Shown here piece after piece: positions 429 to 61,867 of a stretch of 64,000 nt of DNA. The position numbers were made by a program, and so were the translations under genes. The first letter of the stretch is position 1, and each line of letters begins with the position of its first letter. The notes under the pieces were generated by a model. That model was not told where the DNA came from and did no database searches. It worked only from the letters and a program-made list of their open reading frames with translations. The stretch lies in the NCBI RefSeq assembly GCF_016623615.1, contig NZ_JAEHFX010000006.1, positions 124,001 through 188,000 on the forward strand, in the 5' to 3' direction. Source of the stretch: Adhaeribacter terrigena (GTDB lineage Bacteria > Bacteroidota > Bacteroidia > Cytophagales > Hymenobacteraceae).

Positions 429-732
429 CGAAAATCTTCCCTAGCGACTAAAACTCGATTTTCCAGAGCACGAAATTTACACCGTTTTTGAGAAAGGCTG
501 GGCTGGCAAGAAAGATGGCGAAATAATGGAATTGCTAAAAGCCGGGAACTTTGACGCCTTCCTTACTTTCGACCGGAATCTACAATATCAACAAAACTTC
601 AAAAAGTTTACTGTTCCGGTTTTGGTGCTGAGTGCGCCTGACAATACTTATCTGACCTTAAAAGAATTTGTTCCCAAGATCCAAATGATATTTAAAGGGA
701 AATTGATTTCAGGGGTAAACGTTATTTCATAA
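412..732 (+). pseudogene. DUF5615 (PIN-like) toxin, interrupted by an in-frame TAG
   Basis: From ATG 412 the frame reads MKLLLDENLP, the N-terminal acidic motif of DUF5615/Mut7-C PIN-like nucleases, then hits TAG at 442-444. The same frame then stays open to TAA at 730-732 and encodes the rest of the fold, including FDAFLTFDRNLQYQQ with its acidic residues. No frameshift is needed, so a single nonsense change explains it. Partner of the upstream DUF433 antitoxin. Internal initiation at 526 would yield 68 aa without the first catalytic acid, so the toxin is probably inactive unless the stop is read through. Confidence 0.8.
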
Positions 733-747
733 GAACGCTATCGTTTT
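732..747 (+). repeat. dispersed element (core AAAACGSTAKNNTTTT)
   Basis: AGAACGCTATCGTTTT directly after the toxin stop codon and 5 nt before its terminator hairpin. Confidence 0.8.
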
Positions 748-752
748 AAAGC

Positions 753-788
753 AAAAAAGTCAGGCTGGGTTTCCGGCCTGACTTTTTT
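753..788 (+). terminator. intrinsic terminator after the toxin-antitoxin pair
   Basis: AAAAAAGTCAGGC (753-765) pairs with GCCTGACTTTTTT (776-788). The stem is identical in sequence to the terminator at 2763-2794, on the other side of the OLD gene. Confidence 0.9.
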
Positions 789-899
789 GTTGGGTTCAGG
801 TAGCATTTATCAACACCAAGAATTGCTAACATAAAACATTAGAATATATCCAAAATTTCTTATATTGCTTTATAGTTTGGAAAGAAAACAATCATTCTA

Positions 900-2762: not shown

Positions 2763-2794
2763 AAAAAAGTCAGGCCTTACAGCCTGACTTTTTT
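2763..2794. terminator. bidirectional intrinsic terminator
   Basis: AAAAAAGTCAGGC (2763-2775) pairs with GCCTGACTTTTTT (2782-2794). A- and T-runs flank both sides, so it can end both the OLD gene (+) and the bifunctional nuclease gene (-). Confidence 0.9.
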
Positions 2795-2799
2795 ATATC

Positions 2800-2815
2800 A
2801 AAACAATAGCGTTTT
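2800..2815 (-). repeat. dispersed element
   Basis: AAAACGCTATTGTTTT-type copy read on the minus strand; it begins at the last base of... the TAA stop region of the bifunctional nuclease gene (overlap of one base) and precedes its terminator. Confidence 0.85.
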
Positions 2816-3423
2816 TAACCGCGTTTTTGTATTTCATCCCGGATCTTGGCGGCTTTTTCGTAGTCTTCCTTGGCCAGGGCTTCTTCCAGCATCTTGTTCA
2901 GGTCTTCTACCGAGGTTTCGGTAATTTTCTCCTTCTTCTCGGCGGCTGGTTTGCTTTCGGCTTTGGTTTCCGAGGTTTCGTCTAATTCGCTGTCCTCGTC
3001 TTCGTCTTCCAGGTCGCTCAGAATAATGCCGGCTTCCGAAAGTACGGTTTCTACGGTGTAGATCGGTACATTAAAGCGCAGGCCAATGGCAATGGCATCG
3101 GAAGGGCGCGCATCGAGGTCGAATTGCTTGTCGCCGTCGTTACACACGATCTTGGAGTAGAATACGCCTTCTTTCAGGTCGGAGATCATTACTTCCTGCA
3201 CCGTTACTCCCACCTGCTCGGCAAAAGATTTGAACAGGTCGTGCGTGAGCGGACGGTTCGGGTTTATTTTTTCTATCTGGATCGCAATGCTTTGCGCCTC
3301 AAACATACCAATAATGATCGGTAACCGGCGGTTTCCGTCTTTCTCCCCCAGCACCAACGCGAACGAACCTGATTGGCTCTGGCTCGACGAAAGGCCTAAA
3401 ATTTCCAGCTGAATTTTTTTCAC
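2815..3423 (-). CDS. bifunctional nuclease (DUF151) with C-terminal UVR motif
   Basis: About 202 aa. The N-terminal BFN/DUF151 domain is recognisable from KIQLEILGLSSSQSQSGSF, LPIIIGMFEAQSIAI and ARPSDAIAIGLRFNVPIY. An acidic linker (EDEDEDSELDE) follows, and the protein ends in a UvrB/UvrC-type UVR motif (about the last 35 residues, NKMLEEALAKEDYEKAAKIRDEI split over one helix pair). BFN domain proteins are reported to degrade RNA and DNA. I place the start at GTG 3423-3421, giving the family-standard opening (M/V)KKIQLEILGL; a longer TTG-initiated version to 3468 would overlap etfA and has no family support. The GTG lies 19 nt after the etfA stop, so the two are probably co-transcribed. Confidence 0.85.
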   Translation of the reverse strand: MKKIQLEILGLSSSQSQSGSFALVLGEKDGNRRLPIIIGMFEAQSIAIQIEKINPNRPLTHDLFKSFAEQVGVTVQEVMISDLKEGVFYSKIVCNDGDKQFDLDARPSDAIAIGLRFNVPIYTVETVLSEAGIILSDLEDEDEDSELDETSETKAESKPAAEKKEKITETSVEDLNKMLEEALAKEDYEKAAKIRDEIQKRG

Positions 3424-5564: not shown

Positions 5565-6033
5565 TTTTATTCGGTCATCTCGACGTCAGGAGAGATCTCA
5601 TCGGGTTGGTTAAATGTTTGCTATTGAGTTTTTATGCCTGAAAGGATACCGTTTTTATAGCTTGCTTCTTTTTAAAGCTTTCAACTTTCAATTAAGCTTT
5701 TCCCCTCCAGCCGGGAGGCTTCGTTTAGCTACGCTGAATCTCCGATTTCTGCGTTCGCGGCTGCAACCCTTCCTGCCCTACCGGGCTGCCTCGTTCCTCG
5801 GCACCGGAAGTCTTGGAGGCCGCTCTCACAGAAACTGGTGTCAGCTTTCCTTCGTAGCTTGCTTCTTTTTAGTTTAGTTTTCCGGATAACGTGATTTTCA
5901 GGTTACGCTGCGCTGGCGATAGGCGTGAAATCAAACTAAAAATAATCCTGTCTATCCTTTAATCTTGAAAATCGTGTTCAGACAAGAATTCTTTAATCTC
6001 CTAATCTGATAAATCCAAATTCAGACAAATATT
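5565..6033. repeat. ~450-bp non-coding dispersed repeat, copy 1
   Basis: Closely similar to 41421-41857. It begins in both copies with TTTTATTCGGTCATCTCGA and ends near CTGATAAATCCAAATTCAGACA. It contains a long hairpin: TTTCTGCGTTCGCGGC (5746-5761) against 5819-5835, where the second arm has decayed. One copy of the 16-bp dispersed element is embedded (5640-5655). No credible reading frame. The remaining 300 bp up to the KaiB terminator show nothing I recognise. Confidence 0.85.
5640..5655 (-). repeat. dispersed element (inside large repeat copy 1)
   Basis: GAAAGGATACCGTTTT; the large repeat copy 2 has GAAAGCATAGCGTTTT at the same place, so the inner bases have diverged between copies. Confidence 0.75.
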
Positions 6034-6274: not shown

Positions 6275-6315
6275 AAAAAAGCCGGAAACCTTTATGCAAA
6301 GCTTTCCGACTTTTT
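6275..6315 (-). terminator. intrinsic terminator of kaiB
   Basis: AAAAAAGCCGGAAA near 6275-6288 pairs with GCTTTCCGACTTTTT (6301-6315), with runs of A and T at either end; on the minus strand it follows kaiB. Confidence 0.75.
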
Positions 6316-6321
6316 GTTTGC

Positions 6322-6336
6322 CAAACCATAGCTTTT
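6322..6336 (-). repeat. dispersed element, degenerate
   Basis: Read on minus: AAAAGCTATGGTTTG, missing the C of the AAAAC block, between the kaiB stop and its terminator. Confidence 0.6.
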
Positions 6337-6617
6337 CAGCTTTTATCTGACGCAATTCCAAGCCCCGTGAGTACGCGCGTTTTAACCGATAAAGCCCCGA
6401 TGATACGGGTTTCGGGTAAAGGCCATTTTCTTACCAGCGTAGGTATAGCCAGAATACCGGCTTCTTCGGCCCTTTGCGGTTCTACCTGAATGTCAACAAT
6501 TTCGAGCTCGCAATTTCCTTTCAGGTTTTCTTTGCAAATAGCCTGCAGCATTTCAACCGCCTCCATAGATGTAAGACTGTTGCCGTTAATAAAAAGCTGT
6601 AAAACGTATTTGTTCAT
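6336..6617 (-). CDS. kaiB: KaiB-family protein
   Basis: About 93 aa from ATG 6617, which has a good AAAGGAAAT ribosome site just upstream; a longer frame to 6665 is not needed. KaiB is a small thioredoxin-like, fold-switching protein that binds the CI ring of KaiC. Matches to the family are YVLQLFINGNSLTSMEAVEML at the N-terminus, CELEIVDIQVEPQRAEEAGILAIPTLVRKWP in the middle (with the conserved IPTLV-P stretch) and IIGALS near the end. It lies 90 nt downstream of kaiC on the same strand, so it is probably co-transcribed with it. No KaiA is found in the window, so its role is likely redox/stress or timing signalling through KaiC rather than a canonical three-protein clock. Confidence 0.9.
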   Translation of the reverse strand: MNKYVLQLFINGNSLTSMEAVEMLQAICKENLKGNCELEIVDIQVEPQRAEEAGILAIPTLVRKWPLPETRIIGALSVKTRVLTGLGIASDKS

Positions 6618-8167: not shown

Positions 8168-8659
8168 GAATAATAGGTAGCACTGTTTAATACAACAAAT
8201 ACAACACTAACCTTGCCGGGGGAAGTTTTGCTTAAGGGTAAGCGGGGCCGGAAACAGCTGTTTCCAGGAGAAAATAAAAAAAAATATACTGCTGCCTTCG
8301 GGGAAACAGCGTCTTTTGACGTTGGAATTTATTAAAGATAACAGATATTCTGAATATATTGTTTTTTCCGAAAAATTACTTGAAAAAAAATCGAGAAAGA
8401 GCAGCTAATAACCCGGCAAAGATATGCAGATAAATTGAAAAGATAAAATACGGAAACATTCGCTCCCTGCTGCGAAACAGGCGCGGCATCGGGTTTATGC
8501 CTGCAAAACCTTACCGTTTTTTAAGTACCGAAACTGTTCCGGGCACCAGGAATTTGGAAGTAAATTAAAAGGGCACTAACTAAAACGCAGGTAACAAGCC
8601 GGTTATTGAAACGAAAAACCGTAACCAAAGAATATTGTTAAAAAGTAGTTTTGGAGATT
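8168..8659. other. 492-bp gap upstream of kaiC
   Basis: No gene-like frame. It is AT-rich near the kaiC start and must carry the kaiC promoter if kaiBC is not transcribed from the upstream PAS gene. I see no clear promoter box or long hairpin. Confidence 0.5.
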
Positions 8660-8675
8660 TAAACCCTAGCGTTTT
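8660..8675 (-). repeat. dispersed element overlapping a stop codon
   Basis: Minus strand AAAACGCTAGGGTTTA; the TAG of CGCTAG is the stop codon of the PAS-like gene. Confidence 0.85.
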
Positions 8676-9187
8676 TTAAGTTGCTCCTGCAACCGCTCCA
8701 GTTCCATACTCTTTCTTACCAGGTCGCGTTTGGTGTTTATCAGTTCGTTATTCAGGCGGCTCATTTCTTCCAGCAGTTCCCAAACGGTAACTTCGGCCTC
8801 GTTTTCAGTTTGGGTCATTTCTGCCGGTTCAGCCAGGGTGTTTTCTACTTCTTCGGCCACCAATTGGGTAACCGGCAATTCTGGATTTTCTTTTGGAAGA
8901 GCCCGCTGCGCTACCAGGATAATATGATCGCGAAGCAAAACGCCGGAAAAGGTAAAGAGATGTTTTTCATCGTTCAGCAGTATTTCAAGATCGAAATACT
9001 GGGCTTTGCCAGACCAGCGGATAGCTTCCACAAAGCGTCTGCCGGCTTCCAGGTATTCCGGGCTGATGCAAAATAAAAGCGGCTGATTCACCAGGCTTCG
9101 TACATCGAGCTTTTCGCGGACATACATAACTTCCTCGATAAAGCTGTTTTGGTTGCATTGCAGAATAAATTCAGGTCCCGCTTTCAT
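8666..9187 (-). CDS. PAS-like sensory protein with C-terminal coiled coil
   Basis: 173 aa. The first ~115 residues look like a PAS fold (VNQPLLFCISPEYLEAGRRF, then strands FDLEILLNDEKHLFTFSGVLLRDHIILVAQR). An acidic, TE-rich linker (about 116-138) leads to a coiled coil in the last 40 residues (WELLEEMSRLNNELINTKRDL...LERLQEQLKKR). There is no kinase or HTH domain. It begins 4 nt after the B12-binding gene, so it is probably translationally coupled to it and may relay its signal. The family call is tentative because PAS domains have little sequence identity. Confidence 0.65.
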   Translation of the reverse strand: MKAGPEFILQCNQNSFIEEVMYVREKLDVRSLVNQPLLFCISPEYLEAGRRFVEAIRWSGKAQYFDLEILLNDEKHLFTFSGVLLRDHIILVAQRALPKENPELPVTQLVAEEVENTLAEPAEMTQTENEAEVTVWELLEEMSRLNNELINTKRDLVRKSMELERLQEQLKKR

Positions 9188-10571: not shown

Positions 10572-11173
10572 AAAAACAAACTTAAACCGGACCGCGTGGC
10601 ACTTCAGCCCCTGAGCGATTTCACAACTCCAATTCCGGCATTAAAAAATCTTATATAAACGGATTTAAATGCGACAGGTTACAAAAATTTTAATAAATCC
10701 ATAAAACATTCATAACCAGACACATAAACACTTAGCATATTATAAAGTAAATCATTTTCCGTGAAAAGAACTAAATTTTATCCGAATCGATCAAAAAAAG
10801 CAGGTACCTGATACCTGATTCTTACACTTCCTCTCTGCCTCTGGTACTTTACAAATTTAAATGCCGCCGCTTCCCAAGCAGAAAACAGATTCTAACCAAG
10901 GAAGTTTAATTTCCTGACCTGAAGCCATCTCAGAATTACTGCCATGGTAAGCCTTATCAAACAAACTCATGGACTTTTATAGAACAGTTGAACCCTAAGG
11001 CTCTGAAGTCCTTCACCCGCGTTCTATAAAATACTTGGAACAGGCCGCCTTGCATCGCATTTGTGAAATAGCTTTTCATAAGCCGGAAAAAATAAAAACC
11101 GCGATCAATTGCCCCTCACAGGCTTTTTGCGTAAGCAATTTCTGAAAACTTATGAAAAACGCTATTCCTTATC
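10572..11173. other. 602-bp gap between divergent genes
   Basis: AT-rich with no gene-like frame. It must hold the promoters of the ABM-B12-PAS unit (-) and of the outer-membrane gene (+). It contains a perfect 11-bp inverted repeat, listed separately; I see nothing else to name. Confidence 0.5.
10975..11031. repeat. perfect 11-bp inverted repeat with 35-nt loop
   Basis: TTTTATAGAAC (10975-10985) and GTTCTATAAAA (11021-11031). It is not followed by a T-run, so it is not a normal terminator. It lies between divergent genes and could be an operator or an RNA hairpin. Confidence 0.6.
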
Positions 11174-11992
11174 ATGAAAAAACTAATACTTGCTCTGCTG
11201 GCCCTTTTTACCCTGGAAACGGCTTTTGCGCAAACCGAAACGACTCCTGAGTATGAAGAGATAGAAACCGACCGACCCGGCGTGGGTAATGCGGCCACAG
11301 TGGTTCCGCAAGGTGCCTTACAGGCCGAAATTGGCCTGCAATTCCAAAACGACGAAACCAATTTTTACTCAGATAAAGAATACCTGTTGCCCGAAGTCTT
11401 GATCCGCTACGGACTTCTAAATTTCCTGGAGCTACGCTTACGCGGGCAACTTACTCACCGGGTTTTAGATTTAACCGGCCCGGCATTGCCGGAAAACCGC
11501 TTTACCGATACCGGTCTGAACAGAGTGATGCTGGGCACTAAGGTCCAGTTCCTGAAAAACCAGGGTGCCCGGCCGGATTTAGCTTTACAAGCCGATTTTG
11601 AATTGCCAGCCGGCGACGAAACCTTAAAAGCAGATCAGGTTCAACCCAAGCTGCGCCTCAACTTTAAAAACAGGCTTTCCCAAGCTTTATCTTTAAACTA
11701 CAACGTAGGCGTGGAATGGGAAGAAAACTTTAATACTAAAACCGGCGAAAATTATAAGCGGTTTGGTTTATATACCCTGGGGTTAGGATATAAAATAACA
11801 GAAACGTTCCAGATCTTCGGCGAAGCTTTTGGCGAACTGCACCAAAACGATATGCAGCAAAGTTTTGACGCCGGCCTGGCTTATAAATTAAAACCGAATT
11901 TTCAACTGGACGCTTACGGCGGCGTAGGCCTCAGCGAGGAAGCGCCGGATTACTTTGTTTCGGCCGGGGTAAGCTACCGGTTACCAAAGTAA
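11174..11992 (+). CDS. outer-membrane beta-barrel protein, phenol-degradation MetA-like family
   Basis: 272 aa with a signal peptide cleaved about residue 20 (LALLALFTLETAFA-QT). The mature N-terminus IETDRPGVGNAATVVPQGALQ is the typical opening of Phenol_MetA_deg-type transporter barrels, and the body shows alternating beta strands ending in an aromatic strand (DYFVSAGVSYRLPK). Members are annotated as putative outer-membrane transporters, and their substrates are mostly unknown. It is a monocistron: stop, dispersed element and terminator follow directly. Confidence 0.8.
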   Translation: MKKLILALLALFTLETAFAQTETTPEYEEIETDRPGVGNAATVVPQGALQAEIGLQFQNDETNFYSDKEYLLPEVLIRYGLLNFLELRLRGQLTHRVLDLTGPALPENRFTDTGLNRVMLGTKVQFLKNQGARPDLALQADFELPAGDETLKADQVQPKLRLNFKNRLSQALSLNYNVGVEWEENFNTKTGENYKRFGLYTLGLGYKITETFQIFGEAFGELHQNDMQQSFDAGLAYKLKPNFQLDAYGGVGLSEEAPDYFVSAGVSYRLPK

Positions 11993-11996
11993 ACAG

Positions 11997-12012
11997 AAAA
12001 CGGTATGCTTTT
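11997..12012 (+). repeat. dispersed element
   Basis: AAAACGGTATGCTTTT, 4 nt after a stop codon and 6 nt before the terminator stem. Confidence 0.9.
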
Positions 12013-12018
12013 AACGCT

Positions 12019-12054
12019 AAAAACTCACAGCCTTTAAAAGGAGTGAGTTTTTTT
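12019..12054 (+). terminator. intrinsic terminator of the outer-membrane gene
   Basis: AAAAACTCAC (12019-12028) pairs with GTGAGTTTTT (12043-12053), with a T-run. Confidence 0.85.
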
Positions 12055-12109
12055 GTTTTCAAGAAGAAATACAAATGGCTGAAATTTATTTCCGGCAGTT
12101 TTATAGTCT

Positions 12110-12125
12110 AAAACCATAGCGTTTT
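12110..12125 (-). repeat. dispersed element
   Basis: AAAACCATAGCGTTTT on plus; intergenic, not attached to a minus-strand gene end. Confidence 0.9.
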
Positions 12126-12357
12126 TCCTTCAGTTCTGGCTGGCTGATTAGAATTAGCGACCCGCCTTTTCCGGGCTGCGCGCTTTTGAAATCGTGGTAA
12201 TCAGCCCAAATAATAACAGCAATTTGCCAGGTATTAAAATTAAAAAGCGTGTTTCTTTACAATGCCCTGAAAGCAGATTTCTTAAAACCTCAAAAAGCCA
12301 TTCAATAAATTTGCTGCTAAAAACTACTTCCATTTACTCCATTCGGCATTTTTAAAA

Positions 12358-12436: not shown

Positions 12437-13729
12437 ATGCGGATATTCCTTTTATTAACCTTTCTGTTTTACCTCCGGCTGTCAACCGGCTTTGCCCAAC
12501 CAGCGCTTGCGTTAACTTCCCCAACCGATACCGTTAAAATAACCCTGGCCGAAGCCGAAAACCTTTTCCAGGAACGCAACCTGCCGTTGCTGCAGCAAAA
12601 AACTTCCATCGAATCGGCCCGGGCGGCCATTATTCAGGCGCGCTTGTTCGAAAATCCGGTTCTTTCGCTGGAGCAGAACATCTATAATTCCAAAAACGGC
12701 AAATACTTCGATGCTTCCCGGACCGGGCAGCAGATCGTGGCGGTGGAGCAATTGATTACCCTGGCCGGCAAACGGAAAAAACGCGTGCGGGTGGAGGAAT
12801 ACAACGCCCAGCTTACCGAAGCCGAATATTTTGATCTGCTGCGGGCATTGCGTTTTAACCTGCGTTCCTCTTTTGCCGAATTACATTTCCAGCTCCAGAT
12901 AAATAAAAGTTTGACGGAACGCGTGGCGGTGGTGCAAAAACTGGTTACCGCTTTCGAAGGCCAGTACAAAAAAGGCAACGTACCGCTGAAAGAAATCACC
13001 CGCCTGAAAGCGCTGCTCATTTCTTTGGATAACCAACAGCTGAAACTGCAGGCCGAAATTCAGGAAAATCAAAGCGAACTCCGCCTGCTTACCCATTCGC
13101 CGGTTACCACTTTTCTGGTTCCCCAACCCGACCAAGCCACAATTCAGACCCTGAATTTAACCAACCTGACCTATCCGGAACTGGTGGAAACTGCCAAGGA
13201 AAACCGCTACGACCTGAAAGGCGCAAATACCAACGTGAACCTGCACCAGGCCAACCTGAAATTGCAAAAATCCTTGGCCGTGCCCGATGTAACGCTGGGC
13301 GGACTTTACGACCGCGACGGTAGTTTTATAAGAAATTATACCGGGGTAACGCTGCAAATGCCGCTGCCGCTCTGGAACCGCAACCAGGGCAATATCAAAA
13401 TCGCCCGCCACGAACTGGAACGCAGCCAACTGGGCCTGCAGTACCAGGAACAGGTAGTAGAAAACGAAGTGATGGAAGCCTATCAGAAAGCCCTGAAAGC
13501 CCAGCAGCTGCACGCGGGTTTTGACCCCAATTTCCATAGCGATTTCAACAAATTATTCGACGGCGTGGCTGCCAGTTTTGCGCGCCGCAACCTCAGTTTG
13601 CTCGAATTCCTGGATTACTTCGAAGCCTATTCCGACAGCCTGGAACAAGGCCTGGAACTAGAAAACACCCGGCTGCGCACGCTGGAAGAAATAAATTACG
13701 CGGTCGGAAAACCGGTCTTCTCTTATTAA
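12437..13729 (+). CDS. czcC: TolC-family outer membrane efflux protein (CzcC/CusC-like)
   Basis: 430 aa with a signal peptide (cleavage near GFA-QP, residue ~20). Two OEP repeats: one begins at ITLAEAENLFQERNLPLLQQKTSIESARAAIIQARL, with VEQLITLAGKRKKRV characteristic of the CusC/CzcC branch; the second begins near YPELVETAKENRYDLKGA. It forms the outer-membrane channel of the tripartite metal exporter. First gene of a three-gene operon; 16 nt separate it from the adaptor gene. Confidence 0.9.
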   Translation: MRIFLLLTFLFYLRLSTGFAQPALALTSPTDTVKITLAEAENLFQERNLPLLQQKTSIESARAAIIQARLFENPVLSLEQNIYNSKNGKYFDASRTGQQIVAVEQLITLAGKRKKRVRVEEYNAQLTEAEYFDLLRALRFNLRSSFAELHFQLQINKSLTERVAVVQKLVTAFEGQYKKGNVPLKEITRLKALLISLDNQQLKLQAEIQENQSELRLLTHSPVTTFLVPQPDQATIQTLNLTNLTYPELVETAKENRYDLKGANTNVNLHQANLKLQKSLAVPDVTLGGLYDRDGSFIRNYTGVTLQMPLPLWNRNQGNIKIARHELERSQLGLQYQEQVVENEVMEAYQKALKAQQLHAGFDPNFHSDFNKLFDGVAASFARRNLSLLEFLDYFEAYSDSLEQGLELENTRLRTLEEINYAVGKPVFSY

Positions 13730-18093: not shown

Positions 18094-18121
18094 TCCCGGT
18101 TATTCCTGACTTTTTAGGGTG

Positions 18122-18137
18122 AAAAGCATAGCGTTTT
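18122..18137 (-). repeat. dispersed element
   Basis: Minus strand AAAACGCTATGCTTTT, 9 nt past the sensor kinase stop and before the shared terminator. Confidence 0.9.
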
Positions 18138-18146
18138 TTAAGGTAA

Positions 18147-20281: not shown

Positions 20282-20301
20282 AGCCCATACTTTTCAGCCT
20301 T

Positions 20302-20317
20302 AAAACCCTAGCGTTTT
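20302..20317 (-). repeat. dispersed element
   Basis: AAAACGCTAGGGTTTT on minus, beginning at the very next base after the pyc stop codon. Confidence 0.92.
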
Positions 20318-37843: not shown

Positions 37844-37874
37844 TAAAAAGCCCCGGCATAAAACCGGGGCTTTT
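37844..37874. terminator. bidirectional terminator between lipoprotein and E1 genes
   Basis: TAAAAAGCCCCGG, loop, CCGGGGCTTTTA; lies between convergent gene ends. Confidence 0.9.
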
Positions 37875-37887
37875 ACTTTTTCAGGCT

Positions 37888-37903
37888 GAAACAATACCGT
37901 TTT
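37888..37903 (-). repeat. dispersed element overlapping a stop codon
   Basis: AAAACGGTATTGTTTC on minus; its first A is the last base of the E1 TAA stop, and the terminator follows 14 nt later. Confidence 0.9.
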
Positions 37904-41340: not shown

Positions 41341-41420
41341 TATGTCTTTTCAGTTCGTGAAAGGTGTGTGTTTTTGGGATTTTTTTAAGGGAAAGAGTTT
41401 TTATTCAATAAAGGATAGTG

Positions 41421-41857: not shown

Positions 41858-42042
41858 GATCAGGTAGCGTTCATACAGGTCAAGCCCTGACACTACTTCA
41901 TCGCGAAAATCATAAAAATCATAACTCAGTAGTTGTTCTGAAAATCCTGATTCTGATAAAATCATAAAACCAAATAAAGCCCGGTTGCAACAATCTGCCT
42001 CCTGGTTTAAGGCTAAATCTGAGTAAGGCACTTTTTCATGCT

Positions 42043-42058
42043 AAAACCATAGCATTTT
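42043..42058 (-). repeat. dispersed element
   Basis: AAAACCATAGCATTTT on plus (one core mismatch). Confidence 0.8.
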
Positions 42059-42145
42059 TATTTTTCTGAAAAACAAGGTTTTAGCTTTTCGCGGTTGGGG
42101 GAATTTTTCCCTTCTCATTTTCTATTTAATTATGAGAAACTAACT

Positions 42146-43332: not shown

Positions 43333-43373
43333 CGAAAGCCTTTCTGAAATTTTTCGGAGAGGCTTTCGTTTTT
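43333..43373 (+). terminator. intrinsic terminator of ald
   Basis: CGAAAGCCT pairs with AGGCTTTCG with imperfect inner stem, then T5. No dispersed element here. Confidence 0.85.
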
Positions 43374-43405
43374 AGTGGCATAACCCCTACCCTTTTCTCA
43401 AACAC

Positions 43406-45301
43406 ATGTTCTGGCTTAAACTTGGAAATCTACTAAAACGCTTAGGCTTTTTGCTGATAATCTATACCTTGCTGCGATCTGCTTTTTTAACCCTGCATTT
43501 CGATACCTTCAGCCAGGCTACCAACGCGCAAATTGCCAAAGCTTTTGTTTTAGGAATCCGTTTCGATCTGGCCGCCATTTTCATGGTAAACCTGCCTTTT
43601 CTATTTTTCTGCCTGCTGCCTTTTGCTTTTACCGAGTGGAAACGCTACCAGTTGGGGCTGAAGATCTGGTTTGTATTTACCAATTTTCTGTTCCTTTGCC
43701 TGAACCTGATAGACCTCGAATATTTTAAATTCATTGGCCGCCGCACTTCCAACGAGCTTTTCACCATTACCCGCGACATCCAGGCCCAGGCCGGACAGTT
43801 GCTCAGCAATTATTGGTACTTCCCGCTCGCAGGCGCTTTATTGCTATTCCTTTTGATAAAATTGTATCCGAAAGAAAGGAAAAACCCGGACGCTAAGCCT
43901 TATTTGCTGGTAGAAATAATCGGCCTGATCGTGATGCTGGGCGCCGGTGTTTTGTTTATTCGTGGAGGAACTGCGCTAAAACCCTTACGACCGGCCAACG
44001 CCTTCGTACAGGAACCACCCATCCTGGGCCACGTTACTTTAAATACCACTTTTACTTTTATAAAAAGCATCAACAGCCCGGTTTTAGATCCGAAAGAATA
44101 TTTCGCTACCGAAGCAGAACTGCACCAAGCTCTAAACTATAACCCGGACCTACGACCGCAACTAACCGAAAAGCCGGTGCGCGATAACGTAGTGATCATC
44201 ATCCTGGAAAGCTTTGCTTCGGAATACACCGGCCTTGAAAACAACGGCAAAGGCTACACTCCTTTTTTCGATTCGTTGGCGGCGAGGGGCAATTTTTACC
44301 GTGAGCATTACGCCAATGGTCGAAAATCTATTGAAGCCTTGCCGCCGCTTTTTGCCGGATTGCCTTCGCTCATGAATCAACCTTATATCACTTCCAGTTT
44401 TCAGAGCAACAAACTGCACGGCATTGGCAGCATCGCCAAAGAAGCGGGCTACTCTACTTCCTTTTTTCACGGCGCCGAAAACGGTACGATGGGCTTTAAT
44501 ACTTTTGCCAGAATTGCCGGCTTCGAGCAGTATTACGGCTTGCGCGAATATCCGAAAAACCTGTTCAAAACTGATTTCGACGGGCATTGGGGCATTTTGG
44601 ACGAACCGTATCTGCAGTATTTTGCCCAGGAACTGAACAACCAGCAACAACCTTTTTTAACGACTGTTTTTACCCTGAGTTCGCACCAGCCTTACACCGT
44701 GCCTGCCAAATACCAAGGCCGCTTTCCGAAAGGACAATTGCCAATCCACGAGTCTATTGGTTACGCCGATTTTGCCCTGCGCCAGTTCTTTAAAACCGCT
44801 TCCAAACAACCCTGGTATAAGAATACCCTTTTCATTATAACCGCCGACCATACGCAGGAAAGCGTGGATGTTTCGTACCAGAATGACCTGGGCCGGTTTA
44901 AAATTCCTTTACTGCTTTTTCATCCAACCAAAATGCTGCCGGTCCGGAATTTCTTTAAAATCACGCAGCACGCCGATATTCCCGCTACCATTGCCCATTA
45001 CCTGAACCTGCCAGCGAACAAAATTTTACCATTCAGCAATTCGGTTTTAGATACTACCACTGCCGGCCGGGCCATTTTATATACCGATGATAATTACGTG
45101 CTGGTACACCCCGATCTGGTTACCAAAATGAACGAATACGACCAGGTAAATTTCTTTCAATATGCCCCTCACCAGTTAGAGCCGCAGATTGTGCCGAACC
45201 CGGAACTCGAAAAAAAATACACGCAGGAATTAAAGGCACTGGTGCAATACTACCGCAACGGCTTGATCGAAAACAATCTTTATTTCTGGCTGAAACGCTA
45301 G
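43406..45301 (+). CDS. LTA-synthase-like membrane sulfatase (phosphoglycerol transferase family)
   Basis: 631 aa. Five N-terminal TM segments (about 12-30, 48-72, 83-103, 128-148, 160-185), then an extracytoplasmic alkaline-phosphatase/sulfatase domain: VVIIILESFASEYTG (first metal Glu), GRKSIEALPPLFAGLPS (likely Ser/Thr nucleophile), FHGAENGTMGFNTFARIAGFEQYYG, TTVFTLSSHQPY, LFIITADHTQE (D-H metal ligands). Relatives transfer phosphoglycerol or phosphoethanolamine to envelope glycans; as Gram-negatives lack LTA, the acceptor is unknown. Its stop codon lies inside a dispersed element. Confidence 0.9.
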   Translation: MFWLKLGNLLKRLGFLLIIYTLLRSAFLTLHFDTFSQATNAQIAKAFVLGIRFDLAAIFMVNLPFLFFCLLPFAFTEWKRYQLGLKIWFVFTNFLFLCLNLIDLEYFKFIGRRTSNELFTITRDIQAQAGQLLSNYWYFPLAGALLLFLLIKLYPKERKNPDAKPYLLVEIIGLIVMLGAGVLFIRGGTALKPLRPANAFVQEPPILGHVTLNTTFTFIKSINSPVLDPKEYFATEAELHQALNYNPDLRPQLTEKPVRDNVVIIILESFASEYTGLENNGKGYTPFFDSLAARGNFYREHYANGRKSIEALPPLFAGLPSLMNQPYITSSFQSNKLHGIGSIAKEAGYSTSFFHGAENGTMGFNTFARIAGFEQYYGLREYPKNLFKTDFDGHWGILDEPYLQYFAQELNNQQQPFLTTVFTLSSHQPYTVPAKYQGRFPKGQLPIHESIGYADFALRQFFKTASKQPWYKNTLFIITADHTQESVDVSYQNDLGRFKIPLLLFHPTKMLPVRNFFKITQHADIPATIAHYLNLPANKILPFSNSVLDTTTAGRAILYTDDNYVLVHPDLVTKMNEYDQVNFFQYAPHQLEPQIVPNPELEKKYTQELKALVQYYRNGLIENNLYFWLKR

Positions 45302-45306
45302 GTTTT
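45292..45306 (+). repeat. dispersed element containing a stop codon
   Basis: GAAACGCTAGGTTTT; the TAG (45299-45301) ends the sulfatase (…LKR stop). Confidence 0.9.
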
Positions 45307-45412
45307 CCGGGCTAAAAACTATGCTCTATTCCCATGCCTGAGAATTCAATTTTTGATAATTAATTGAAACCTGTACTAGCATAACACCTGAACAATTTTG
45401 TATTTTGCTATG

Positions 45413-45425
45413 AAAAACGGTAGGG
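45413..45425 (+). repeat. half copy of the dispersed element
   Basis: AAAAACGGTAGGG without the T-run. Confidence 0.5.
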
Positions 45426-45499
45426 AAAACGGCTCCAAAACTGATAAATAAGTTTAGAAATAGAAAGTGTAAAAGTTTTGACTCAATGTCTGATTGGAT

Positions 45500-47321: not shown

Positions 47322-48095
47322 ATGAAGACCAAAGAAGAAATTGTAAACAATTGGCTGCCGCGATACACCGGTACGCCGCTGAATGAATTCGGCGAATATA
47401 TTCTGCTTACCAACTTTATTAATTACGTGGTGATGTTTGCCGAACAACATAACGTAGAAATTAAAGGGATGGATAAGCCCATGCAAACCGCCACAGCTAA
47501 CAATATCACCATCATCAACTTCGGGATGGGAAGCCCTATGGCTGCTACCGTTATGGATTGCCTTTCAGCCATTAAACCCAAAGCGGCTTTGTTTCTGGGT
47601 AAATGCGGTGGTCTGAAAAAGAAAACCAAACTCGGCGACCTGATCTTACCCATCGCTGCCATTCGCGGCGAAGGTACTTCCGACGATTATTTACCGCCCG
47701 AAATTCCGGCATTACCTTCGTTCCGTTTGCAGCGCGCCGTTTCTTCCATGATCAAAAAGCACGAGCTCGATTACTGGACCGGAACCGTTTATACCACCAA
47801 CCGCCGCGTGTGGGAGCACGACGAGGAATTCAAGGAATACCTGCGCAAAACCCGCATCATGGCCATCGACATGGAAACGGCTACGATCTTCGTGGTTGGT
47901 TTCATGAACGACATTCCGCACGGCGCCCTGCTGTTGGTTTCAGATAACCCGATGACCCCGGATGGCGTGAAAACGGCCGAAAGCGATTTAAAAGTAACTT
48001 CCAATTTTGTAAATAAACATTTGCAGATTGGTATCGATGCGCTTCTGGAGATCATGAATTCCGGCGAATCAGTAAAACACCTGCGCTTCGAATAG
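47322..48095 (+). CDS. amn: AMP nucleosidase (short form)
   Basis: 257 aa. A PNP/UDP phosphorylase-superfamily fold: ITIINFGMGSPMAATVMDCL, AALFLGKCGGL, GDLILPIAAIRGEGTSDDYLPPE and the catalytic acidic region IMAIDMETATIFVVGF, then LLVSDNPM (SDxP nucleoside site). It hydrolyses AMP to adenine and ribose 5-phosphate, controlling adenylate pools. The N-terminal regulatory domain of E. coli Amn is absent, as in other members from this phylum. Confidence 0.9.
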   Translation: MKTKEEIVNNWLPRYTGTPLNEFGEYILLTNFINYVVMFAEQHNVEIKGMDKPMQTATANNITIINFGMGSPMAATVMDCLSAIKPKAALFLGKCGGLKKKTKLGDLILPIAAIRGEGTSDDYLPPEIPALPSFRLQRAVSSMIKKHELDYWTGTVYTTNRRVWEHDEEFKEYLRKTRIMAIDMETATIFVVGFMNDIPHGALLLVSDNPMTPDGVKTAESDLKVTSNFVNKHLQIGIDALLEIMNSGESVKHLRFE

Positions 48096-48111
48096 AAAAC
48101 GCTATGCTTTG
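48096..48111 (+). repeat. dispersed element
   Basis: AAAACGCTATGCTTTG begins at the base after the amn stop codon and ends 5 nt before the terminator stem. Confidence 0.92.
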
Positions 48112-48116
48112 AAGGC

Positions 48117-48153
48117 AAAAAAGTCCGGTTCAGAAATGAGCCGGACTTTTTTT
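48117..48153 (+). terminator. intrinsic terminator of amn
   Basis: AAAAAAGTCCGG pairs with CCGGACTTTTTTT. Confidence 0.93.
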
Positions 48154-48749: not shown

Positions 48750-48807
48750 ACAGAAGTGAGTTAAAAGCTAATTCAGCTAATGATAAAAGGTAGAATATAG
48801 ACTATGA

Positions 48808-48823
48808 AAAACGGTATCATTTT
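48808..48823 (+). repeat. dispersed element
   Basis: AAAACGGTATCATTTT then GAGCTTCAAAAGTC. Confidence 0.9.
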
Positions 48824-48895
48824 GAGCTTCAAAAGTCAATAGCAAACCAAACTACCATCTGTAATAGATTCCTCCTATAGTCGGGATGACGGATT

Positions 48896-48911
48896 AAAAC
48901 GGTATGATTTG
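48896..48911 (+). repeat. dispersed element
   Basis: AAAACGGTATGATTTG then AGGCTGCAAAAC. Confidence 0.85.
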
Positions 48912-48981
48912 AGGCTGCAAAACTGCAATCCACCGACCAAGTCCCACATATTGTTCAGAATCCCAAGCTCTGCAAACCTTA

Positions 48982-50283: not shown

Positions 50284-50356
50284 AGGAGGAAGCAGATTTT
50301 AATGCGGGTGGTAAGTTAAGTAAAATTAAGAATGCCAGAAAAAGAACTTTTTTAAC

Positions 50357-50372
50357 AAAACGCTATGGTTTT
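50357..50372 (+). repeat. dispersed element
   Basis: AAAACGCTATGGTTTT then TCAGCCAAAAACC, between divergent genes. Confidence 0.92.
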
Positions 50373-50456
50373 TCAGCCAAAAACCCGGTTACCTGAAAAA
50401 CTTGGAACGAATTTAGCGTAAGGCATTCAAAACAGCATTAAACTCCGAACACCTAT

Positions 50457-50985: not shown

Positions 50986-51906
50986 TTAAAATAATTTGGA
51001 AAGTACCTGTTCCAGAATCCGTGGAGGCGAAAGGGCAAAGAAATGCACGCACTTAAATTCCTTTTCATATAATTCACTGGCTTGTTCCACGGCCCAGTGT
51101 ATGCCCGTTTCTTCCAGTTCCGCTTTCCCGGTGCAATTATTTATTTGTCTTTGTAATGCTGCGGGCACCGAAACTTTAAAAAAGGCAGGCAGCTTTTGCA
51201 GCAAATTTAAAGAAACCAAAGGGCTGATGCCGGGAAAGATCGGAACGGAAATTCCGGCGTTGCGGCAGGCTTTTTCGAAAGCAAAAAAACGGGAATTATC
51301 GAAAAAAAACTGGGTGATGATAAAATCGGCGCCGGCTGCAACTTTCTGTTTCAGATATTGAACGGAAAGCTCAAAATTTTCTGCCGGTTCCGGATAACCT
51401 CCTACCCCAATACAGAAATCGGTTTTAAAAGCGCTTTTTTCATTCCGGAAATTGATGCCGTTATTCAGCTTTTTTACCTGTTCTACCAACTGATATGCAA
51501 AGGCATGCTGTCTAGGTTTTGGTGCCTTGTCCCCCGAAATATCCCCGCGTAAAAGCAGCAGATTCCGCACGCCGGTTTGGTGCAATTGCAGCAAAACAGT
51601 TTCCGTTTCTTCCGGTGTAAATCCGGTGCATAAAATATGCGGCTGCGGCATGAGCGCATACCTTCCGATTAGCGTTTCAGCCAGACTTTTCGTTTTGGGC
51701 CGGGCTTTCAAAACGCTATCCTTTTCCCCCGAAAAACCCGAATTGCTTCTGGCCGCATGGTACGGTACATCGACGAATAGCGGCTTACGCGCAAAAATTT
51801 TCTGGTATAGCAACAGGTTCTCTTCCGTGCTCATACCTGGTTTGGGTAAGATCTCCAGGGAAAATTGCCGACCGGTAGTTTGTTTTAAAAGCTCGGTAAT
51901 ATGCAT
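50986..51906 (-). CDS. metF: methylenetetrahydrofolate reductase
   Basis: 306 aa TIM barrel. FSLEILPKP (opening strand with the catalytic Glu), LCTGFTPEETETVLLQLHQTGVRNLLLLRGD (FAD/folate strand), IGVGGYPEPAEN (the xxGYPExH-like motif), AGADFIITQFFFDNSRFFAF, ISVPIFPGISP. It reduces methylene-THF to methyl-THF for methionine synthesis. The loop after YHAARSNSG is longer than usual and is coded by a dispersed element. Monocistronic. Confidence 0.95.
   Translation of the reverse strand: MHITELLKQTTGRQFSLEILPKPGMSTEENLLLYQKIFARKPLFVDVPYHAARSNSGFSGEKDSVLKARPKTKSLAETLIGRYALMPQPHILCTGFTPEETETVLLQLHQTGVRNLLLLRGDISGDKAPKPRQHAFAYQLVEQVKKLNNGINFRNEKSAFKTDFCIGVGGYPEPAENFELSVQYLKQKVAAGADFIITQFFFDNSRFFAFEKACRNAGISVPIFPGISPLVSLNLLQKLPAFFKVSVPAALQRQINNCTGKAELEETGIHWAVEQASELYEKEFKCVHFFALSPPRILEQVLSKLF
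51710..51725 (+). repeat. dispersed element inside metF
   Basis: AAAACGCTATCCTTTT with right-hand CCCCCGAAAAACCC extension, full consensus, translated in the metF frame (minus) as a loop around GEKDSVLK. Confidence 0.85.
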
Positions 51907-52912: not shown

Positions 52913-52940
52913 AGGTTTACCAATAACCGATTATCCAATT

Positions 52941-52988
52941 AAAACGGTAGGATTTCAGCCGGGAAAAGTCAGGAAAACGGTATTAAAA
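52941..52988 (+). repeat. two tandem dispersed elements
   Basis: AAAACGGTAGGATTTC (52941-52956) and AAAACGGTATTAAAA (52974-52988), both sense, between the ppx stop and the terminator. Confidence 0.85.
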
Positions 52989-52995
52989 TTTGCAT

Positions 52996-53027
52996 AAAAA
53001 ATGCCCGGTAGTTTAACCGGGCATTTT
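52996..53027. terminator. bidirectional terminator between ppx and ppk1
   Basis: AAAAAATGCCCGG and CCGGGCATTTT around an 8-nt loop. Confidence 0.92.
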
Positions 53028-55233: not shown

Positions 55234-55570
55234 ATTTAAATTCTCGGTAATCCCGCGAAGATTCTTCAACACCATTGCGAATAAACTTAATTTCTAAAAG
55301 CTAAACGAAAGCCCTGCGGCCGGGTTTGAGGCAAATTAACTTATTTATACGAGAAACGGTATATTTTCGGCCTAAAAAGCTTTGGATCAGCTATTTTTCA
55401 TTCTGCTCGTTACAACAAAAAAACGGTAGGGTTTTACCCTGAAAAAGTCTGCCGGAAGTTACCCGAAAATTCCCGGTAGAATTGCCGCAGATTTTCGCAG
55501 CAAATTTCAAACAAAAACCCTTACTCCTGTTTTAAGTAATAATACCTTACCGTTTTAACCGCTGCAATTT
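55234..55570. other. 337-bp gap between divergent ppk1 and DUF5996 genes
   Basis: No gene. Three dispersed elements (listed next) occupy much of it; promoters for both genes must lie here but no box is clear. Confidence 0.6.
55353..55556. repeat. three dispersed elements
   Basis: GAAACGGTATATTTT (55353-55367, +), AAAACGGTAGGGTTTT (55420-55435, +) and AATACCTTACCGTTTT (55541-55556, minus orientation), the last ending 14 nt before the DUF5996 ATG. Confidence 0.88.
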
Positions 55571-56503: not shown

Positions 56504-56520
56504 AGCAGTTTTTCAGCTCT

Positions 56521-56536
56521 CAAACCATAGCGTTTT
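56521..56536 (-). repeat. dispersed element
   Basis: CAAACCATAGCGTTTT on plus, immediately before the terminator stem. Confidence 0.88.
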
Positions 56537-56579
56537 CAAATAAAAAGCCCGGCCAAAAAATGGCCGGGCTTTTTATTTG
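56537..56579. terminator. perfect 19-bp bidirectional terminator
   Basis: CAAATAAAAAGCCCGGCCA (56537-56555) with its exact complement at 56561-56579; between convergent DUF5996 and gyrB. Confidence 0.93.
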
Positions 56580-56619: not shown

Positions 56620-58905
<2,286 letters not shown>

Positions 58906-59465: not shown

Positions 59466-59484
59466 GCTTTAATATAATCTGTTT

Positions 59485-59500
59485 AAAACGGTAGGGTTTT
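59485..59500 (+). repeat. dispersed element
   Basis: AAAACGGTAGGGTTTT then CAAAGAAAAAAC. Confidence 0.92.
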
Positions 59501-59540
59501 CAAAGAAAAAACTGCTTGTACCTTAAACAACAATCACTTT

Positions 59541-59823: not shown

Positions 59824-60336
59824 CTAATCGGCATTTTGTTTGCGCAGTATTTCTATGATCTCGTCTTTCAGGGCCAGAATGCGCTCCAGATTATCTTTTT
59901 CGGCCTGGCAAACCCGTAACTCCGAAAGCACCGAAGGTACGTTCATGAGCTGCTGCAGCGCCGTATTTTCGTGGGTAGAAGCCGGCGTTTTAGCATGCCA
60001 ATCGCCTTCAGAAACCGGGGCGTGCTGGTTGGGCGGCGCAGCCGGTACCGGAAGATTAACTACCGTACCAAAGGGCCGTAGCGGCTCCCCTTTTCCGGTA
60101 ATGAGCCAATCCATATTTACCCGCGGATACTTGGCGGCAATTTTCTGAAGCGTATCAAAACTTGGCTTCCCCATCCTGCCATAGGGGCTCATGATATTAT
60201 TCAGCACACTGGTATCAACTCCTATTTCGTTCGCAAAAGCGGCCACCGATCTTATCTTCAAAAGTTCCTGAATAACCCGTAACCGATGGGAAACCGTGAA
60301 CTCCGATATTCCAGCGATGTCATTTGATTTCTTCAT
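59824..60336 (-). CDS. XRE-type transcriptional regulator with C-terminal coiled coil
   Basis: 170 aa. HTH region ~15-75: RLRVIQELLKIRSVAAFANEIGVDTSVLNNIMSPYGRMGKPSFDTLQKIAAKYPRVNMDWLITGKG, the phage-repressor-like helix set including the WLITGKGEP ending. A Pro-rich linker (~85-105) leads to a coiled coil (LRVCQAEKDNLERILALKDEIIEILRKQN). There is no peptidase domain. Likely a dimeric repressor; repeated ACCGAYATATT sites lie upstream. Confidence 0.9.
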   Translation of the reverse strand: MKKSNDIAGISEFTVSHRLRVIQELLKIRSVAAFANEIGVDTSVLNNIMSPYGRMGKPSFDTLQKIAAKYPRVNMDWLITGKGEPLRPFGTVVNLPVPAAPPNQHAPVSEGDWHAKTPASTHENTALQQLMNVPSVLSELRVCQAEKDNLERILALKDEIIEILRKQNAD

Positions 60337-60351
60337 ACTCTAAATTCCCTA

Positions 60352-60471
60352 AACAATATGTTCATTTGCCTTCCTCAACCAATTAATATAATTAACTGCA
60401 CCAATTCGAAGCAACACTACACCGACATATTGGGGAGAAAAAAAGTTCGGAATATAGCATACCGATATATT
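60352..60471. promoter_or_regulatory. candidate operator sites of the XRE regulator
   Basis: ACCGACATATT (60421-60431) and ACCGATATATT (60461-60471) are 40 bp apart, and AACAATATGTT (60352-60362) is a near-palindrome sharing CAATATGT with the complement of the first. They lie in the leader of the XRE gene, fitting autoregulation. Confidence 0.4.
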
Positions 60472-60622
60472 TATTCTTATTAATATACATTTTAAAATCA
60501 GACCCTGCGCTTCCTTTTAAAATATTCACACAAAATATTCCTATTATTACAAAACAAAGACACCCGGCTTTCCAAAAAAAACCGGGTGCAAAGGAAAATA
60601 AAATTCAGGAAAACCGGCTTTA

Positions 60623-61867
60623 CTACCGCGGCGGGCTTGCTTCCTTTAACATCTGATAGGTCATATAACCCAGAAAAGCGATCACCAGCAACAAGGCGAT
60701 CCAGATCAGCGATTTATCCTGAAAAAACCGGTTAACGGCGCTTTTTCCAGCTTCGGGCATAGCGTTTTTGTTTACCGTGAGCGGTTCCAGAACCGGCAGA
60801 TTCTCCGGAAGTTTATCTTTGAAAAACGGCAGATCATAAGCCGGCGCAACCGCTTTTTCGTTTCCAAAATGCAATTCATAGCGGCGGTTCTTTTTTAACT
60901 CTGCGATCAGGCTGGTTTTCAACTGATAAGCTTTTACCGCCAAAATTTCCAGGGGCGGATTATCGGCATTCTCTATTTCCACGTAAAATTCCTTTGCCCG
61001 GAAACCACTGATCTGAAAGGAATTGGCAGCATCTGACCGGAGCTGAAAATGATGTACCGGTACCCACGTTTCCTGCTTTTTATTCCGGCGGCTATAAACG
61101 GTTTCCTTTACAAAAACGGTAGCATTCCGGAGGTAAAAAGTAGTTGAATCGATCTCAAATTCCAGCTTATCGATCAGCACCGGCCTTTCAGATGAAAACC
61201 ACAAAAAAGTTTTTTTCACCTGCGTGCTGTCGGTGCGGTCAAAAGTCAGATCCGGAATAATCTGGTACTGCCCTTTTTCGGCGTTAAAATCGTAAAAACC
61301 GGCGGCTAAAATATTGAGTGGCGCGCTGGCAGAATCGTTTATTTCCAGCTTGTAAAACTCGTAATCGGAAAGCGGAAAATGTAGCACTTTTACTTCCGAA
61401 GTTTCTTCCGTATTCGTAACTGACTGCAACACGTAATCGTCTTCCAGGGCAAACCAGTTTTGGGAATCGGAGCTGCCACTCAGGCTGGCTATTTTGCTTA
61501 CGTTCGTGTTTTTTATGACCAGCCCGAGGTTGTTTATTTTGCTTTTTCTCGGGTTCTGAATAATTAGCGTGGTATTAACTTTCGGAACGCTGTTTTTGCT
61601 GATCACCGGGTATTCGCGGAAGTAACGGGTTGTTTTTTCGGTAGCGGTCCGTTCCAGCAAATAAGGCAGCTCGCGGTTCTTATCGTCCAGGATCCGCAGG
61701 TCTGAAAAGTCTGCATTGGTGTAACTGATAATTTCGGGGCGCAGGTTTATTTTATAAAACCCGTTCTCCGAAACTGCGGGCAAGGGCGCTTTAAACAGTT
61801 TTTGCTGTCCGAACCCTAGCGTTTTCAAAGTCAGCAATATCCAGAAAATGGCTACGGCTTTTTTCAT
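60623..61867 (-). CDS. DUF3999 family protein
   Basis: 414 aa from ATG 61867, giving a signal peptide (MKKAVAIFWILLTLKTLGFG-QQ). Large periplasmic beta-rich region with two discoidin-like halves (ISYTNADFSDLRILDDKNRELPYLLE; IDKLEFEIDSTTFYLRNATVFV), then a TM near the C-terminus (about 385-407) and a cytoplasmic end. Two or three sequences like the dispersed element occur in it. It overlaps the DUF2339 gene by ATGA, a known pair; both are envelope proteins of unknown role. Confidence 0.88.
   Translation of the reverse strand: MKKAVAIFWILLTLKTLGFGQQKLFKAPLPAVSENGFYKINLRPEIISYTNADFSDLRILDDKNRELPYLLERTATEKTTRYFREYPVISKNSVPKVNTTLIIQNPRKSKINNLGLVIKNTNVSKIASLSGSSDSQNWFALEDDYVLQSVTNTEETSEVKVLHFPLSDYEFYKLEINDSASAPLNILAAGFYDFNAEKGQYQIIPDLTFDRTDSTQVKKTFLWFSSERPVLIDKLEFEIDSTTFYLRNATVFVKETVYSRRNKKQETWVPVHHFQLRSDAANSFQISGFRAKEFYVEIENADNPPLEILAVKAYQLKTSLIAELKKNRRYELHFGNEKAVAPAYDLPFFKDKLPENLPVLEPLTVNKNAMPEAGKSAVNRFFQDKSLIWIALLLVIAFLGYMTYQMLKEASPPR
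60754..60769 (-). repeat. possible dispersed element inside a CDS
   Basis: AAAACGCTATGCCCGA on minus, codes KNAMPE between the periplasmic part and the TM; only the left half matches. Confidence 0.45.
61112..61127 (+). repeat. possible dispersed element inside a CDS
   Basis: AAAAACGGTAGCATTC on plus, antisense to DUF3999 codons; may be chance. Confidence 0.3.
61811..61825 (-). repeat. dispersed element inside a signal peptide
   Basis: AAAACGCTAGGGTTC on minus, codes KTLGF in the DUF3999 leader. Confidence 0.5.

Follow-up and report, generated by a model that had tools for sequence, protein, structure and literature searches.

A dispersed motif of about 30 bp in Adhaeribacter terrigena, a putative DNA-uptake-type signal sequence in a Bacteroidota genus

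The window analyzed here is a stretch of 64,000 nucleotides of the Adhaeribacter terrigena genome (contig NZ_JAEHFX010000006.1, positions 124,001 to 188,000 of the forward strand), and one short sequence motif recurs throughout it. A position weight matrix (PWM) of the motif finds 56 sites scoring above 15 in the window, 27 on the plus and 29 on the minus strand, with 34 between genes, 12 across a gene edge, and 10 inside called genes (Table 1). An earlier note on this DNA had put the number at about 47, evenly divided between the strands; the even division holds, and the count is slightly higher. The dispersed repeat it described is real. The 16-bp form, AAAACGSTAKNNTTTT, matches the window 35 times with at most one mismatch, compared with 0.68 expected from shuffled sequence (the near-palindromic sites 20302 and 33885 were entered on both strands). 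In the whole assembly (4,434,170 bases in 24 contigs, a draft rated 100% complete), there are 859 exact matches, 418 forward and 441 reverse, and a single match for the pattern read backwards. The sequence evidence makes it probable that this repeat serves as a DNA-uptake-type signal, functionally analogous to the uptake signal sequence (USS) of Haemophilus but evolved independently in one Bacteroidota genus.

Alignment of copies from 464 kb extends the motif to about 30 bp, AAAACGSTA K SS TTTT nnnnnnn AAAA[CG]T, so that the length of 16 bp first given for the element falls short; the further A-run reported with it is borne out by 771 genome copies that also have AAAA exactly 7 nt past the T-run. 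Three blocks make up the motif: the AAAACGSTA core, an AT-rich tract at positions 11-14, and an A-tract at positions 21-25, the tracts lying about one helical turn apart. On the 3' side of the T-run is a loosely GC-rich spacer, followed by the A-tract and then [CG]T. The core is constant, as had been claimed for its AACGSTA part, and the A-tract equals it in conservation. A hairpin proposed between TTTTCA and TGAAAA is weak, with little information in the spacer at positions 15-20. At positions 11-13, about nine-tenths of the sites aligned have T or A, and this tract thus looks AT-rich and not base-specific. The frequency of T at positions 11-14 is 0.45-0.61 inside genes versus 0.64-0.85 between genes, and most core and A-tract positions remain sharp inside genes despite the looser T-tract. 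Outside the motif, the flanks hold a mean of 0.01-0.02 bits per position.

The consensus is far stronger than the number of sites would require, with an information content of 28.6 bits where 11.1 bits would be enough to locate the sites. Perfect AAAACGSTA occurs 514 times in a sample of 864 kb that includes the window and makes up about 19.5% of the genome. A Markov-3 control has 32, so that the observed count is well above the kind of composition model against which the earlier note had proposed to check the motif. One-mismatch copies number 1,088 versus 875 in the same control, an excess of 213; perfect cores therefore outnumber the single-mismatch excess, although only once background is subtracted. 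According to the excerpted text of PMC1626085, the USS and the DNA uptake sequence (DUS) both have more perfect than singly mismatched copies, unlike regulatory sites, and the over-strong consensus is a puzzle common to the two. These two properties ill fit ordinary binding sites maintained by selection, and they bear on the possibility that the motif is bound on the chromosome by an intracellular protein, in a nucleoid, segregation, repair/recombination, or Chi-like role, and that selection maintains thousands of such sites. Binding sites of this kind would look alike in being on both strands, genome-wide, and not inserted, and the missing type IV pilus markers described below weaken the case for uptake. 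The lack of a global strand bias, summed over the whole assembly, may also count against a binding site, and we consider this explanation unlikely, if still worth keeping in view.

Sites were scored with a PWM trained on 464 kb of the same 864-kb sample, at a cut-off score of 15. Two independent yardsticks yielded no site above this score in 464 kb of Markov-3 sequence and 9 in 800 kb of another family member (G003). The sample contains 768 sites (398 plus and 370 minus), or 0.89/kb, roughly one per 1,100 letters, and extrapolation gives a genome total of about 3,900. Genes were called by a simple home-made gene caller that misses some small genes, and 80% of the DNA is coding. On this basis, the sites divide into 430 between genes, 115 across a gene edge, and 223 inside genes, so that the earlier description of nearly all copies as noncoding has to be given up. 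Spacing is slightly more even than simulated, with a coefficient of variation of 0.98 versus 1.063 ± 0.042 and 6 of 300 simulations as even. Six site-poor stretches exceed 5.5 kb. Two of them are within the ribosomal-protein/rpoA cluster, and a PHROGs scan of the ribosomal-protein stretch added nothing further; two others adjoin each other, carry a phage integrase, DUF3987, and DUF6371, and look like an integrative element. As the stretches were picked after the fact, their gene content is no more than suggestive.

Table 1. Motif sites in the 64,000-nucleotide window (extended PWM, score above 15)
Feature	Coordinates	Strand	Evidence
Motif site	75..106	-	PWM 20.4
Motif site	731..762	+	PWM 33.5
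Motif site, gene edge	2785..2816	-	PWM 32.9
Motif site	5625..5656	-	PWM 37.0
Motif site, gene edge	6307..6338	-	PWM 22.0
Motif site	8490..8521	-	PWM 22.2
Motif site, gene edge	8645..8676	-	PWM 31.3
Motif site, gene edge	11155..11186	+	PWM 26.3
Motif site	11996..12027	+	PWM 37.4
Motif site	12095..12126	-	PWM 36.4
Motif site inside gene	13515..13546	-	PWM 21.1
Motif site, best in window	18107..18138	-	PWM 39.7
Motif site, gene edge	20287..20318	-	PWM 35.9
Motif site inside gene	20346..20377	-	PWM 26.7
Motif site	24275..24306	-	PWM 36.3
Motif site	24421..24452	+	PWM 20.8
Motif site	25345..25376	+	PWM 31.2
Motif site	26398..26429	+	PWM 25.9
Motif site	27968..27999	+	PWM 30.3
Motif site, weak	28012..28043	+	PWM 17.5
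Motif site, gene edge	29113..29144	-	PWM 35.7
Motif site	31433..31464	-	PWM 37.3
Motif site, gene edge	32074..32105	+	PWM 28.5
Motif site	32119..32150	+	PWM 36.3
Motif site, gene edge	33776..33807	-	PWM 30.7
Motif site, gene edge	33884..33915	+	PWM 27.5
Motif site	34419..34450	-	PWM 28.3
Motif site, inverted pair with 35738-35769, hairpin then T-run	35730..35761	+	PWM 26.7 and sequence
Motif site, inverted pair with 35730-35761	35738..35769	-	PWM 23.1
Motif site inside gene	36416..36447	-	PWM 20.7
Motif site inside gene	36677..36708	-	PWM 24.6
Motif site inside gene	37019..37050	+	PWM 33.1
Motif site, gene edge	37873..37904	-	PWM 35.7
Motif site	41394..41425	-	PWM 24.2
Motif site	41482..41513	-	PWM 37.7
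Motif site	42028..42059	-	PWM 34.1
Motif site, weak	43366..43397	-	PWM 16.9
Motif site, gene edge	45291..45322	+	PWM 30.9
Motif site	45413..45444	+	PWM 27.9
Motif site, gene edge	48095..48126	+	PWM 34.7
Motif site	48807..48838	+	PWM 34.4
Motif site	48895..48926	+	PWM 30.5
Motif site	50356..50387	+	PWM 33.2
Motif site inside gene	51709..51740	+	PWM 34.4
Motif site	52940..52971	+	PWM 32.4
Motif site, weak	52973..53004	+	PWM 18.4
Motif site	55352..55383	+	PWM 22.2
Motif site	55419..55450	+	PWM 37.8
Motif site, weak	55526..55557	-	PWM 17.3
Motif site	56506..56537	-	PWM 25.2
Motif site, weak	58687..58718	-	PWM 16.8
Motif site	59484..59515	+	PWM 33.3
Motif site inside gene	60738..60769	-	PWM 20.1
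Motif site inside gene	61112..61143	+	PWM 28.9
Motif site inside gene	61795..61826	-	PWM 27.5
Motif site inside gene	63316..63347	+	PWM 24.2

The origin of the coding copies was addressed by a gap test modelled on the Haemophilus test in the excerpted text of PMC1626085, with 1.6 Mb of G003, which is nearly motif-free, as the reference. (The congener discussed below is distant from A. terrigena, its best protein match in 400 kb being 63.5%.) A first homolog search at 65% identity and 80% cover yielded nothing, and a relaxed cut-off gave 21 aligned sites. In the larger test, 93 of the 223 coding sites are in genes with a G003 homolog and 64 are alignable. At a homolog identity of at least 40%, 36 of 43 sites are gap-free, and none of the 43 overlaps a gap of 8 or more amino acids in the relative; the longest gap is 7 amino acids, while the whole motif corresponds to about 10. 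At an identity of at least 50%, 4 of 33 sites are gapped, and the longest gap in the relative is 3 amino acids. The 30 gap-free sites with a homolog identity of at least 45% have a mean PWM score of 23.6 in A. terrigena, and the matching codons of G003 average -21.3. Several well-conserved proteins have an almost unchanged peptide at the site, encoded in A. terrigena by codons that together make up the motif and in G003 by other codons; at site 26375 of block C21a, for example, 10 of 11 residues are identical and the scores are 28.2 versus -1.1. Near-identical peptides with motif-spelling codons count against insertion as the source of the coding copies. The coding copies examined differ from the relative by substitution and not by insertion, in a two-genome comparison that carries no direction of change.

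In the genomes examined, the motif does not extend beyond the genus, which answers the earlier suggestion to look in related genera. The one congener included (G001) has 70 exact copies of AAAACGSTAKNNTTTT (reversed control, 1), with a looser consensus, an A-tract one base earlier, and 164 PWM sites above 15 in 400 kb. Re-iteration of the PWM on the congener at a low threshold made it drift to a loose motif (510 hits, versus 88 in the Markov control), and no counts are based on it. Each of 198 other family genomes has 0-3 exact copies, comparable with the 0-5 of their reversed controls. In an order sample, 8 of 290 other genomes (44 of the 290 being family members) have one match each to the extended pattern and the rest have none. 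The strict extended pattern gave at least two isolated single matches in a wide contig collection from which A. terrigena itself may be left out, one in Acholeplasmataceae and one in a Bacteroidia metagenome-assembled genome, and no match in a viral contig collection. The A. terrigena genome encodes type IX secretion system sorting domains, as fits a member of the Bacteroidota. On the simplest reading, the motif rose within the genus, and the version in this single congener is either decaying or a dialect.

Among eight sequence hallmarks of USS and DUS, six are seen in A. terrigena, and the spacing and dialect data do not settle the other two. According to the excerpts of PMC1626085, USS and DUS occur at close to one per kb with no significant orientation bias. 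The Haemophilus-type USS (Hin-USS) of the Pasteurellaceae is described, in the parts of the sources cited here, as AAGTGCGGT followed by two 3' AT-rich segments. The A. terrigena motif is like this Hin-USS in its density of about 1/kb, its occurrence on both strands, its noncoding preference with copies in coding DNA, and its strong consensus; in coding copies that are not insertions and in some inverted pairs; and in a layout of about 30 bp with a 9-bp core and two AT-rich segments on the 3' side about a turn apart. It differs in that its core, AAAACGSTA, is without the GCGG inner core, and in that its second tract, an A-run plus [CG]T, is conserved like the core. The Neisseria DUS resembles it in density, orientation neutrality, and inverted pairs but is, in the same partial accounts, contiguous and up to about 13 nt long, lacks flanking motifs, and has CTG as its inner core; a type IV pilin, ComP, serves as its receptor. 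The A. terrigena motif resembles a USS and probably acts like one, but we do not place it in the Pasteurellaceae USS family. USS and DUS are known only from Pasteurellaceae and Neisseriaceae according to the excerpted portion of PMC12616744, and in the open-licence literature, no title or abstract found on uptake sequences, in Bacteroidota or generally, on the Riemerella machinery, or on such repeats describes the motif. We lean, by a narrow balance, toward regarding it as the first genome-saturating uptake sequence outside these two families. It would then have arisen a third time independently, in Bacteroidota, would work without a type IV pilus, and would share with the Haemophilus USS a geometry of about 30 bp made of a core and two AT tracts.

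A mechanism can be proposed on this basis. A surface protein would bind the AAAACGSTA core of extracellular double-stranded DNA, and the AT-rich tract and the A-tract, about one turn from each other, may let the helix kink or open for crossing the outer membrane. The DNA would pass the periplasm with a helix-hairpin-helix (HHH) protein and enter as single strands via ComEC, after which DprA and RecA would recombine it. Fragments with a better motif would be taken up more often, and recombination would then swap weaker alleles for stronger ones. Such biased uptake and recombination would cause the motif to accumulate where constraint allows, in gaps, at gene ends, and in tolerant codons. If so, the shared geometry may be a physical requirement for threading a kinked duplex through an outer-membrane pore and not the quirk of one receptor. 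Were this a third case, found in another phylum and in a genome lacking type IV pilus markers, self-preferring uptake would be seen to evolve repeatedly via different machines. The motif would also be a ready-made tag for transforming the genus and a pointer to a new receptor, and it makes testable the long-standing argument over whether uptake bias by itself is enough to spread such sequences.

The A. terrigena genome has ComEC, from the com genes that the earlier note had named as a check, and DprA, together with a NamZ_N/DUF1343 protein and a 308-amino-acid protein, encoded on contig C24, with three HHH matches and a hydrophobic N-terminal stretch; ComEC and DprA are also present in the congener. 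In the excerpted text of PMC8459023, transformation of Riemerella anatipestifer has eight essentials (ComEC, DprA, ComF, RecA, a three-HHH protein, DUF1343, DUF5689, and a predicted outer-membrane protein), and the three-HHH, DUF1343, DUF5689, and outer-membrane proteins are said to be unlike any well-known machinery. A. terrigena is therefore like Riemerella in its ComEC, DprA, three-HHH, and DUF1343 proteins. Riemerella columbina, in the excerpts of PMC7965970, prefers its own DNA, and only A-rich k-mers are listed there as putative uptake sequences. None of the ten proteins in the 20 kb around comEC is a receptor candidate by Pfam.

Several results weigh against an uptake function. The HHH, ComEC, and DprA proteins are widespread in bacteria (in 11, 10, and 11 of 14 control genomes, respectively) and are no proof of competence, and DUF5689 is absent from the A. 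terrigena genome, unlike Riemerella. Neisseria and Haemophilus take up DNA by type IV pili, as stated in the excerpts of PMC7965970. Unlike Haemophilus, A. terrigena has in its genome no secretin and no T2SSE ATPase above the cut-off, both markers of the type IV pilus; the open reading frame behind one weak T2SSE hit reads by eye as an ABC-transporter ATPase. The congener has both a T2SSE ATPase and a secretin and yet the weaker motif. In the gap test, gaps were found at 7 of 43 motif sites at the 40% cut-off versus 5% of random windows in the same genes (3.5% at the 50% cut-off); the motif sites are in less conserved segments, with an amino-acid identity of 0.50 versus 0.61 at the 40% cut-off. 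Without an identity cut-off, 12 of the 64 alignable sites are gapped, and in the earlier, smaller test, 7 of 21 were, most of them in alignments below 40% identity. The longest site-free stretch, at 12.0 kb, only slightly exceeds the average maximum in simulations (9.6 kb), and ordinary genes are found in two of the six longest site-poor stretches. The earlier suggestion of a DNA-uptake-type sequence is supported by its sequence hallmarks, and the missing type IV pilus markers speak against it. With these markers absent, uptake would need other machinery. For an uptake sequence, three possibilities follow: uptake proceeds without a type IV pilus, the strain has recently lost uptake, or the genes are missing from the draft.

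The second of these options shades into another explanation, that the motif is the residue of a past uptake or drive system now inactive in the strain. The absence of type IV pilus markers speaks for it, and a weaker consensus such as that of the congener is what would be expected after loss. The A. terrigena consensus is sharp, with perfect copies exceeding the single-mismatch excess; any loss of uptake would accordingly be recent, and we regard a residue as improbable.

A mobile repeat of the repetitive extragenic palindromic (REP) or miniature inverted-repeat transposable element type, multiplied by a transposase such as a REP-associated tyrosine transposase (RAYT), is more doubtful again, and this reading of the earlier note is not supported. 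The motif resembles REP/RAYT systems in being short, dispersed, and of high copy number, and the strong consensus and some inverted pairs would also fit; REPs are palindromic. Unlike those systems, it has many copies inside genes, coding copies that are not insertions, and no Y1 transposase: the search for a RAYT gave no Y1_Tnp match in the A. terrigena genome and 7 (RAYT/IS200-like) in the motif-poorer congener. The absence of a motif-sized gap at all 43 coding sites refutes mobility for those copies. Intergenic 3' flanks are 0.265 alike, compared with 0.268 for random intergenic 30-mers (averages of sampled pairs); one sampled pair reaches 93%, the highest value, and a few copies may thus be duplicated.

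Placement at gene ends invites a role as an RNA element of the 3' untranslated region (UTR) or a component of terminators. The sites are densest in convergent gaps (5.06/kb, versus 2.84/kb in tandem and 2.52/kb in divergent ones). Within 30 bp of gene 3' ends, there is a sense excess of 120 versus 80, which may arise because the stop codons TAA and TGA share letters with the start of the motif. Twelve close inverted pairs occur at offset 9 in the 864 kb, and of 8 read by eye, 7 are a hairpin followed by a T-run, a putative terminator. The 37 pairs at offset 14 each amount to one near-palindromic core picked up on the two strands. Out to 200 bp from 3' ends, however, 243 sites are sense and 240 antisense (a site in a convergent gap being scored for both genes), so the sense-strand placement at gene ends claimed earlier does not hold as a general rule. 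Inside genes, 132 sites run with the gene and 91 against it. No site in the window has an Rfam match. With no sense bias at this distance, no Rfam family, many sites inside genes, and only 12 offset-9 pairs to 768 sites, a 3' UTR RNA signal, as the earlier note had also considered, is highly improbable.

The Rfam scan, which covered the window and one other stretch (L037), found the bacterial RNase P class A RNA gene in the window at 29680-30084 (+) and two tRNAs in L037. The likely integrative element with few motif sites runs from L126:4535 to L127:1695 on contig C21, to the right of the window. In the congener, the T2SSE ATPase and the secretin are close together on contig C7:24035-27080. 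Other over-represented sequences were also noted. The palindrome ATCCGGAT occurs 92 times versus 23 expected in the 464-kb sample of A. terrigena, each counted on both strands. The congener has repeats of its own in 400 kb, TAGCGTAGGG (17 versus 0.2 expected) and AAAGGGGGAC (13 versus 0.2 expected). In the 1.6 Mb of G003, overlapping 10-mers such as CGCACTATGT (55 versus 0.6 expected) suggest a longer repeat that may be a mobile element.

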